The notes under the pieces were generated by a model. It was given only the letters and a program-made list of their open reading frames with translations. It made no database searches and was not told the origin of the DNA. From Thiogranum longum (GTDB taxonomy: Bacteria > Pseudomonadota > Gammaproteobacteria > DSM-19610), in contig NZ_SMFX01000001.1 of assembly GCF_004339085.1 (NCBI RefSeq), positions 1,868,242 through 1,932,241 on the forward strand: a stretch of DNA of 64,000 nucleotides, in the 5' to 3' direction. Positions within the stretch are counted from its first letter, which is position 1. The number at the start of each line of letters is the position of its first letter. A program made the position numbers and the translations under genes. Shown here in pieces: positions 26,450 to 42,010 of the stretch.

Positions 26450-27544
26450 TCAGGCTGCAAAGTCACGCAACCTGACGGGCATACGTTTCGCTCCCCAGTC
26501 CCCGGGCCTTTCTTCAAAGACGCCGGCACAGGGCGTGCCGCAGGATGCGCACTTCCCGTCCGCGGTCAGGTTCCAGTCCGACAGCACGTACCAGTCACGG
26601 CCGATCAGTTTTTCACCGCACTTGTGACAGTAAGTGCTGTCGCCTGCCTCATTGTGCACATTCCCCGTATAGGCATAACGCACGCCGTTTTTCATGGCAA
26701 TATCACGGGCGCGCACCAGGGTTTCTTTGGGTGTTGGTGGAACATCCATCATTTTCCAGTCGGGATGAAAGGCGGAAAAATGCATGGGCACATCCGGCCC
26801 GAGTTTTTCCACCACCCACTGGGTCATTTCGTTGATTTCCTTGTCCGAATCGTTCTTGCCCGGGATCAACAGGGTTGTTGTTTCCAGCCAGACATCGGTT
26901 TCGTGTTTGATGTATTCCAGCGTTTCCAGTACCGGTGCCAGGTGTGAACCGGTGATCTTGTGGTAGAAGTCTTCGGTAAAGGCCTTCAGGTCGACGTTGG
27001 CCGCATCCATGTATTGGTAAAATTCCTTGCGCGGTTCGGGACAAACGTAGCCCGCAGTGACCGCAACCGACTTGATACCTTTGTCATGGCAGGCTTTGGC
27101 GACATCGATAGCATATTCGTGAAAAATCACCGGGTCATTGTAGGTATAGGCCACACTCCGGCAATTCAGCTCCTGTGCTGCACTGGCGATCAGTTCCGGT
27201 GATGCCTCGTCGGCCAGGGTATGGATTTCCCGTGACTTGCTGATATCCCAGTTCTGGCAGAACTTGCAGGCCAGGTTGCAGCCCGCGGTACCGAACGACA
27301 ACACCGGCGTACCGGGCAGGAAATGGTTCAGCGGTTTCTTTTCAATCGGGTCGATGCAGTAACCACTGGAACGGCCGTAGGTTGTCAGCACAATCTGGTC
27401 GTCGAGATTTTGACGAACAAAGCACAAGCCACGCTGGCCTTCGTGCAGTTTGCAAAAGCGCGGGCACAGGTCGCATTGAACCCGCCCATCCTCCAGCTTG
27501 TGCCAGTACTTTGTGTCTACAGTATATTGATCGCGTTCAGTCAT
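26450..27544 (-). CDS. amrS: AmmeMemoRadiSam system radical SAM enzyme
   Basis: A cytosolic radical SAM protein with the CxxxCxxC cluster site in GCNLACKFCQNW. An N-terminal cysteine pattern (CDLCPRFCKLHEGQRGLC) and a C-terminal zinc-ribbon-like pair (CHKCGE, CASCGTPC) give the AmrS/PflX-like layout. The other AMMECR1 and Memo partners are not in this window. The ATG at 27544 is preferred because AGGA lies nine bases upstream; the ATG at 27553 abuts that site. Reaction unknown. It heads amrS-ahcY-pcm and shares a divergent promoter region containing an FNR-type box with polX. Confidence 0.88.
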   Translation of the reverse strand: MTERDQYTVDTKYWHKLEDGRVQCDLCPRFCKLHEGQRGLCFVRQNLDDQIVLTTYGRSSGYCIDPIEKKPLNHFLPGTPVLSFGTAGCNLACKFCQNWDISKSREIHTLADEASPELIASAAQELNCRSVAYTYNDPVIFHEYAIDVAKACHDKGIKSVAVTAGYVCPEPRKEFYQYMDAANVDLKAFTEDFYHKITGSHLAPVLETLEYIKHETDVWLETTTLLIPGKNDSDKEINEMTQWVVEKLGPDVPMHFSAFHPDWKMMDVPPTPKETLVRARDIAMKNGVRYAYTGNVHNEAGDSTYCHKCGEKLIGRDWYVLSDWNLTADGKCASCGTPCAGVFEERPGDWGAKRMPVRLRDFAA

Positions 27545-27601
27545 AAGTGTCATTCCTGTGTGCTATATGGCGACAAATAACCGATTTATCAAGACCTGTC
27601 A

Positions 27602-27615
27602 TTGACGCGTATCAA
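27602..27615. promoter_or_regulatory. FNR/Anr-type operator between amrS and polX
   Basis: TTGAC-GCGT-ATCAA differs at one position from the FNR consensus TTGAT-N4-ATCAA. On the plus strand TATAGT follows at 27638-27643, leaving 22 bases between. This places the box at about -41.5 if transcription starts near 27650, the class II activator geometry, with the polX start codon 32 bases further on. Control of amrS in the other direction is possible but its -10 (TATTTG) is weak. Confidence 0.7.
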
Positions 27616-27681
27616 CAGGCCCGACATCTGTCTAAAGTATAGTAAGCATTTATGCCTTAACCAGAAGGCGGGAGGGGTTTG

Positions 27682-29406
27682 GTGCCTGTTCATAACGAAG
27701 ACATCGCCGCGGTATTTGACGAAATCGCAGACCTGCTTGAAATCGAAGGCGACAACCCGTTCCGTATTCGCGCCTACCGCAACGGTGCGCGCACCCTGCG
27801 CGAACTCGGCCAGGATGTGCGCACACGGGTCGAGCGCGGTGACGACATCACCCGCCTGCCTGGCATAGGCAAAAACCTGGCTGACAAGATTCATGAAATT
27901 CTCGACAGCGGCCATTGCCGCACGCTGGACAAACTGCGCAGGAAACTCCCCGCTGACCTCACCACGTTACTGAAACTGCCGGGCCTGGGTCCACGGCGCG
28001 TACAGGCCCTCTACCACGAACTGGATATCCACAATCGCGAACAACTGGAGCGTGCCGCCCGCGATGGCCTGATTCAACGGTTGCCCGGTTTCGGTGCAAA
28101 AACCGAAGCACGCATCCTCGATGCCCTGCAGGCACATGCCGATACCGGGAAACGCTTCAAACTGGCTGTTGCCGCGCGTTATGCCGAGTCGCTGGTGGGG
28201 TATCTTAAAACCGCCGAGGGCGTCAGCCAGGTGCAGGTTGCCGGCAGCTACCGGCGTTGCCGGGAAACGGTGGGAGACCTGGACATCCTGGTCATTGCAC
28301 GCCATGGCCACAGTGTTATCGAACACTTCGTCGCCTACGATGAAGTGGAAAATGTACTGTCCAGCGGCACCACGCGTGCATCTGTCATCCTGCGCAGTGG
28401 TTTGCAGGTCGATTTACGTGTAGTAGCGAAAATCAGTTACGGCGCAGCACTGTACTATTTCACCGGCAGCCGATCGCACAATATTGCCGTGCGCCGCATC
28501 GCCCGGCGCAAAGGGCTCAAGATTAACGAGTACGGGGTTTTTCGGGGCAAAAAGCGCGTTGCCGGAAAGACCGAGGAAGAGGTGTTTGCGTCGATTGGCC
28601 TGCCGTTCATCCCGCCGGAGCTGCGGGAAAACCGTGGCGAAATCGAGGCCGCCCAAGCCGGCTTGCTGCCCACACTGGTCGAAAACAATGACCTGCGCGG
28701 TGACCTGCACTCGCACACCAATGCCAGCGATGGCCACGAGTCCTTCCAGGTCATGGCCACTGCAGCAAGAAAGCATGGACTGGAATACCTGGCCATCACC
28801 GACCACTCCAGGCGCCTGACAGTTGCACACGGACTGGACAGCACACGGCTGCTGGCACAGCTTGAATTAATCGATGATTTCAATGCCGGGGATCATGACA
28901 TCACCCTGCTCAAGGGCATCGAGGTGGATATCCTTGAAGACGGCAGCCTGGATCTGCCGGATAACATTCTGGCACAGCTCGATCTGGTTATCGGCGCCGT
29001 GCACAGCCGCTTCGAGCTGACGCGAGCAAAGCAGACCCGTCGTATTCTACGCGCCATGGACAACCCCAACTTCACCTTGCTGGCGCACCCTGGCGGGCGC
29101 CTGATCAACCAACGCCCCCCCTATGACGTGGATATGGCGAGAATTATCCGTCATGCGCGTGAACGCGGCTGTTTTCTGGAGCTGAACGCACACCCGGAAC
29201 GACTGGATCTGCTGGATACTCATTGCCAACTGGCGCGCGAGGAAGGTGTGCTGATCAGTATAAATTCTGACGCACACAGTATCGCGGACTTCGACAACTT
29301 GCGTTTTGGTATTGGTCAGGCGCGGCGTGGCTGGCTGGAAAAACAGGATGTACTCAATACCCGCCCACTGTCAGAATTACGCAAACTGCTGGCAGGGACC
29401 CGCTAA
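27682..29406 (+). CDS. polX: DNA polymerase/3'-5' exonuclease PolX (PolX + PHP domains)
   Basis: A family X repair polymerase with a fused PHP exonuclease. The N-terminal helical 8-kDa part has EIEGDNPFRIRAYRNGARTL and helix-hairpin-helix motifs (LPGIGKNLADKI, LPGLGPRRVQAL, LPGFGAKTEARIL). The polymerase palm has AGSYRRCRETVGDLDILV with paired aspartates. The PHP domain (about 335-574) has DLHSHTNASDGHES, AITDHS and the ending SINSDAHS. GTG at 27682 fits the ribosome binding site GGAGG (six bases); TTG at 27679 is closer. Likely FNR-activated. Its stop overlaps the convergent gene at 29403. Confidence 0.93.
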   Translation: MPVHNEDIAAVFDEIADLLEIEGDNPFRIRAYRNGARTLRELGQDVRTRVERGDDITRLPGIGKNLADKIHEILDSGHCRTLDKLRRKLPADLTTLLKLPGLGPRRVQALYHELDIHNREQLERAARDGLIQRLPGFGAKTEARILDALQAHADTGKRFKLAVAARYAESLVGYLKTAEGVSQVQVAGSYRRCRETVGDLDILVIARHGHSVIEHFVAYDEVENVLSSGTTRASVILRSGLQVDLRVVAKISYGAALYYFTGSRSHNIAVRRIARRKGLKINEYGVFRGKKRVAGKTEEEVFASIGLPFIPPELRENRGEIEAAQAGLLPTLVENNDLRGDLHSHTNASDGHESFQVMATAARKHGLEYLAITDHSRRLTVAHGLDSTRLLAQLELIDDFNAGDHDITLLKGIEVDILEDGSLDLPDNILAQLDLVIGAVHSRFELTRAKQTRRILRAMDNPNFTLLAHPGGRLINQRPPYDVDMARIIRHARERGCFLELNAHPERLDLLDTHCQLAREEGVLISINSDAHSIADFDNLRFGIGQARRGWLEKQDVLNTRPLSELRKLLAGTR

Positions 29407-41996: not shown

Positions 41997-42010
41997 TTGA
42001 TCTCTGTCAA
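41997..42010. promoter_or_regulatory. FNR-type operator between the DksA-like and DUF3775 genes
   Basis: TTGAT-CTCT-GTCAA has one mismatch to TTGAT-N4-ATCAA and flanking A/T bases extend the symmetry. On the minus strand TAGGGT, which keeps the three most conserved -10 bases, lies at the 22-base class II spacing (complement of 41969-41974). No comparable -10 is seen at that spacing towards DUF3775; GATACT at 42039 is 28 bases away. Confidence 0.6.

Follow-up and report, generated by a model that had tools for sequence, protein, structure and literature searches.

The 64,000-nt stretch of the Thiogranum longum genome analysed here (the window; positions 1,868,242-1,932,241 of a 2.92-Mb single-contig genome) carries, between amrS and polX, what is probably a single binding site for an FNR-family activator. 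The site would belong primarily to amrS and be used in both directions, with polX having come onto its second arm after the loss or rearrangement of two genes. From comparison of the sequences, we put the probability of this reading at about 0.68. The features concerned are:

26450..27544, minus strand: amrS, radical SAM enzyme of the AmmeMemoRadiSam system, 364 aa (NCBIfam TIGR04337, 671 bits against a cut-off of 220)
27574..27579, minus strand: weak -10-like hexamer TATTTG on the amrS side, at a gap of 22 nt from the box, matching TATAAT at 3/6 positions
27602..27615, no strand: FNR-type box TTGAC-GCGT-ATCAA (TTGACGCGTATCAA), common to amrS and polX
27638..27643, plus strand: -10-like hexamer TATAGT directed towards polX, exactly 22 nt from the box; the same hexamer and gap are found in the related genome G011
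27650, plus strand: predicted polX transcription start, from the spacing, with the box centre at -41.5
27669..27681, plus strand: approximate end of homology to the promoter region of G011, in which pcm2 and a gene for an 816-aa membrane protein lie between promoter and polX
27682..29406, plus strand: polX, encoding a 574-aa DNA polymerase/3'-5' exonuclease (PolX) with a PHP domain and starting at GTG (above the cut-off of NCBIfam NF006375; Pfam domains pol beta thumb/palm, HHH and PHP, the polymerase and PHP domains expected of a PolX)

Layout of the promoter region

The initial annotation had proposed a class II FNR promoter in front of polX, with its box shared with amrS. Direct reading of the sequence confirmed TTGAC-GCGT-ATCAA and TATAGT, 22 nt apart. 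The box conforms to the FNR-type palindrome TTGAYNNNNRTCAA and is centred at 27608.5, so that a start site at -41.5 falls at 27650; the site position and the gap to TATAGT give the polX side the class II arrangement. There are 38 nt between TATAGT and the polX GTG start (27682), with GGGAGGGG immediately 5' of the start codon; most relatives have ATG where T. longum has GTG. Because amrS is on the minus strand and starts at ATG 27544 (or 27553), the box is flanked by divergent genes, which supports its sharing. The amrS side also has the 22-nt gap, with a poor hexamer; the better -10 is TATAGT, on the polX arm. A sigma-70 reading, with TTGACG and TATAGT as -35 and -10 elements, failed because these hexamers are 30 nt apart and a promoter scan returned no such site.

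The frequency of box-like sequences was used to judge chance occurrence. Allowing two mismatches, TTGACNNNNATCAA occurs 57 times in the window where 49 were expected, i.e. without enrichment; allowing one, TTGATNNNNATCAA occurs four times where 1.5 were expected. The evidence against chance from the window itself is modest. Genome-wide, there are 27 exact TTGAYNNNNRTCAA sites and 5 for the reversed pattern. A plasmid search gave no further information. For the other boxes, with the window locus left out, we picked the gene-facing sides from the ORFs without using the -10 in choosing. On these 16 sides the mean match to TATAAT was highest at a gap of 22 nt (3.19/6), against a background over 60 gaps of 1.45 (standard deviation of the gap means, 0.41); the 36 non-facing sides had no peak at 22 nt. 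The arrangement on the polX side is therefore that of the other boxes in this genome, in support of the class II assignment. Given the 27 sites against 5 and a -10 peak that falls exactly at 22 nt, the box is unlikely to be a chance match. Several of the other boxes face genes of anaerobic functions: norC, nirS, nosR, hemN, moaA, a napC/nirT-type cytochrome gene and ompW (N-termini recognised by eye). A DUF3775-like ORF adjoins the window's second exact FNR-type box (41997-42010).

Candidate regulators and known counterparts

T. longum encodes a candidate cognate regulator with the expected features: its Fnr has the C-x2-C-x5-C cluster, a later Cys and the E-x-x-S-R helix, and exceeds the NCBIfam Fnr cut-off. 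An Fnr orthologue was found in 18 of the 20 genomes of the order; the two others (G004 and G008, 71% and 82% complete) have no amrS box either. In the mechanism that we propose, an FNR-family dimer centred at 27608.5 would lie at -41.5 for a polymerase starting at about 27650 towards polX, with TATAGT as its -10. Symmetry would give the amrS direction a similar geometry, the dimer lying at about -41.5 from a start near 27567 that uses the weaker -10. Binding, activation, start sites and signal are predictions here, based on the box, its spacing, the Cys-bearing Fnr, the conservation of the box with amrS and the polX-side -10 kept in G011. amrS and polX would then be expected to be co-induced at low oxygen, or in denitrification if a Dnr-type paralogue acts.

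This last case is the alternative that survives best, and it overlaps with the preferred reading because the signal differs while the architecture is the same: the regulator would be a Dnr-type, NO-responsive paralogue instead of Fnr, and the signal nitric oxide or denitrification, not oxygen as such. We regard it as possible but the less probable assignment. Three other CRP-family regulators of the genome (L003, L004 and L005) have the E-x-x-S-R helix and no N-terminal Cys cluster, and the boxes facing norC, nirS and nosR also speak for such a paralogue; the distribution of Fnr orthologues in the order speaks against it, although no point against it is decisive. Dnr targets and Fnr/Anr targets have one common motif (PMC5398030), and control by Fnr (O2) and by a Dnr-type protein (NO) cannot be separated by sequence.

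Promoters of this kind are already known; amrS and polX are new targets. In Escherichia coli, 19 of 23 directly activated FNR promoters with a known start have the site within 4 nt of -41.5 (PMC3688515), like the site centred at about -41.5 here. The E. coli targets differ in being genes of anaerobic respiration and fermentation, with neither polX nor amrS among those in the portion of that report drawn upon (PMC3688515), and the site in the window is a predicted one. Closer to the divergent arrangement is the region between nirS and nosR2 in Dinoroseobacter shibae, where reporter fusions showed that a single Fnr/Dnr palindrome acts in both directions, its positions relative to the two divergent genes being -39.5 and -41.5 (PMC5398030). 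Both genes of that pair are denitrification genes, whereas the window pairs a radical SAM enzyme with a repair polymerase and the dual use is predicted.

Conservation of the box with amrS

amrS is present in all 20 genomes of the order, 17 of which were usable (in G003, G006 and G012 the upstream sequence is truncated by a contig end). In 8 of the 17, amrS is preceded by a box matching at least 9/10 positions: exactly in G000, G010, G011, G001 and G009, and with one mismatch in G007, G016 and G002. Of the 16 order genomes put through the shuffle control, 7 had a real match, against an average of 0.28 and never more than 2 in the shuffles. The other nine genomes have no amrS box, and Fnr is present in most of them. 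In the AmrS tree, most of the carriers cluster near the genome of the window, with G015, G013 and G028, which are without the box, interspersed. Two AmrS sequences (L163 in G171 and L164 in G281) that are 90% identical to that of the window are nested among its closest relatives while their genomes are assigned to another family; this reflects either gene transfer or misplaced genomes.

The input to the amrS scan was 113 loci, of which 15 had no anchor motif (including G011, counted separately) and two had <200 nt upstream, leaving 96; extra upstreams beyond the existing loci were taken only down to ~70% identity. Outside the order, the box was exact in 2 of 80 upstreams and matched at least 9/10 positions in 11 of 80 (shuffles, 0.07 and 2.48), a weak excess. 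Among these cases are G054 and G029, both with an amrB-like gene in the divergent position. In the genome of the window (G000), an amrB gene with a Memo domain is found at G000:C1:2091571-2092329, ~200 kb from amrS and not adjacent to it.

Towards amrS, the mean best -10 score over nine genomes was 4.33 at gaps of 20-23 nt, ranking first among 50 four-gap windows (mean, 2.74); because the nine genomes are related, this ranking is not independent. The amrS-directed hexamers at 20-23 nt are better in G011, G007, G016, G002 and G054 than in the window, and score 3/6, as in the window, in G010, G001 and G009.

The gene across the box from amrS is polX in the window and pcm2 in G011. In G010 it is a cytochrome gene, arranged in tandem with amrS; G001 and G009 have a DUF3775-like ORF there, and G007 and G016 one that resembles glutamate synthase (the last two by eye). 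The DUF3775-like ORF is the homologue of the one that adjoins the second box in the window. G001 also has an exact box (TTGATCTGAATCAA, L114:4574-4587) flanked by an ORF resembling a small heat-shock protein and by a YbaK-like one (by eye). In G007 and G016 (L117 and L118) the amrS box has, judging by eye, an anaerobic gene as its other partner; in L117 a pyruvate:ferredoxin oxidoreductase-like ORF (by eye) comes after the glutamate-synthase-like gene. Full-length polX was not found in G010 and G016, both of which keep the amrS box, and in G001, G009, G007 and G002 the box is kept before amrS with polX located elsewhere. In these comparisons the constant partner of the box is amrS, not polX, which suggests that the box is kept mainly for amrS. 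Conservation of the box in relatives, for which the initial annotation had called as a check on the polX promoter, was thus seen ahead of amrS; apart from G011, the box does not track polX.

polX on the proposed second arm

G011 is the closest relative with both genes (AmrS 94% and PolX 89% identical), and its intergenic region aligns with that of the window through the box, the -10 and the subsequent CTTAACCAGA. All 10 consensus positions in the box (12/14 overall) and 6/6 positions of TATAGT are identical, compared with 15/22 in the spacer and 32/57 in the amrS leader, so the polX-side promoter is conserved in G011. Within the order, this layout was found in the window and in that one other genome only. 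In G011 the promoter then heads an operon of pcm2, the gene for the 816-aa spermidine-synthase-like membrane protein and polX; in the window the homology ends at ~27669 and polX follows directly. The 816-aa protein had no match in the T. longum genome, in a search run without a positive control. The simplest history would be that the two intervening genes were lost (or rearranged) in the lineage of the window, placing directly on the second arm a polX that in G011 is still separated from it; the direction of the change is drawn from few genomes.

The 250 nt 5' of polX in its closest relatives (89, 87, 81 and 82% identity) contained no convincing box, the best match being 9/10 at -231 in G007. 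A box owned by polX and conserved with it in near relatives was rejected for the genus on these grounds. The named relatives of this polX include Thiogranum and Thiohalobacter MAGs, so that a sulfur-oxidising gammaproteobacterium is the probable host; in the named set, one MAG (L039) has an exact box 52 nt 5' of polX, the sole exact case among 32 usable of 35 loci.

A wider set of 59 polX upstreams (200 nt each) was obtained by dropping seven genomes for a missing start, broken gene or contig edge (G027, G046, G054, G328, G329, G349 and G354) and adding seven from the order itself. Six of the 59 have an exact box: the window; G040, G187 and G294, of one genus; G231; and G358. Over 200 shuffle runs the average was 0.03 and no run gave more than 1, and the reversed motif gave 0, but shuffles are too lenient a control because real boxes precede many genes. 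With a Poisson background of ~0.9% of genes (25 of about 2,700; our estimate rather than a count), the 5 of 58 other upstreams are about ten times expectation and, taken as three lineages, give P ~0.014. In G040, G187 and G294 (L323, L275 and L276) the box lies between polX and a divergent fructose-bisphosphatase-like gene (by eye) in all three species, with hexamers 22 nt off both sides (TATGTT towards polX; AATAAT or AACAAT opposite). G231 and G358 are weak cases. The polX-side hexamer of G231 is TGGAGT (3/6); in G358 the best at 20-24 nt is only 2/6 and, with no -10 at that distance and a divergent phosphoribosyltransferase-like ORF close by, the box may serve that ORF. The 9/10 boxes before polX in G258, G140 and G099 were rejected as coding coincidences at the end of the preceding RtcB-like gene (by eye), where the match ATCAAGGG runs into the stop codon (TGA or CTGA/TTGA). 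Since exact boxes precede polX in other lineages, FNR control of polX may have more than one origin, and its repeated recruitment is a lead.

These comparisons also bear on a narrower explanation, in which only amrS makes use of the box and oxygen has no control over polX, TATAGT being either coincidental or left over from the promoter of the pcm2-polX operon. Such a view accounts for a box that goes with amrS rather than polX across the genus and persists in G010 and G016, but it leaves aside that the better of the two -10 hexamers stands 22 nt from the box and is kept in G011, and that exact boxes precede polX in other lineages; we consider it unlikely. The proposal of an FNR promoter in front of polX is accordingly borne out in its layout, in G011 and by the exact boxes elsewhere, and needs amending in that the box tracks amrS. 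That box and spacing are a functionless chance match is very improbable: although the reversed-pattern control predicts ~5 of the 27 genome matches and the window shows no excess of the looser pattern, the box is conserved ahead of amrS, its key positions are identical in G011 and the 22-nt spacing is the genome's own.

In G247 (L321, G247:C2:279500-285500) polX is followed in tandem by amrB-, amrA- and amrS-like genes, and in G080 (L324, G080:C2:457500-463500) polX comes directly after amrS; amrS and polX were search hits and the other names were given by eye. The amrS-polX distance is <10 kb in G011, G001 and G009. This recurrent neighbourhood hints at a functional link. More speculatively, polX may have been recruited repeatedly to an FNR/Dnr regulon and polX-amr may form a functional module, AmrS and the repair polymerase being co-expressed under anoxia or NO stress and presumably mending damage specific to low-oxygen or nitrosative conditions.

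To our knowledge, the conditions that require bacterial PolX and the AmmeMemoRadiSam system are poorly known, and a search of the open-access literature (subscription papers and regulon databases being outside its range) found no report linking PolX or AmrS to FNR. The conserved FNR-type box ahead of amrS offers a testable condition for AmrS. If the prediction holds, the arm towards polX would place a DNA-repair polymerase in the anaerobic or nitrosative programme, under the control of O2 or NO.
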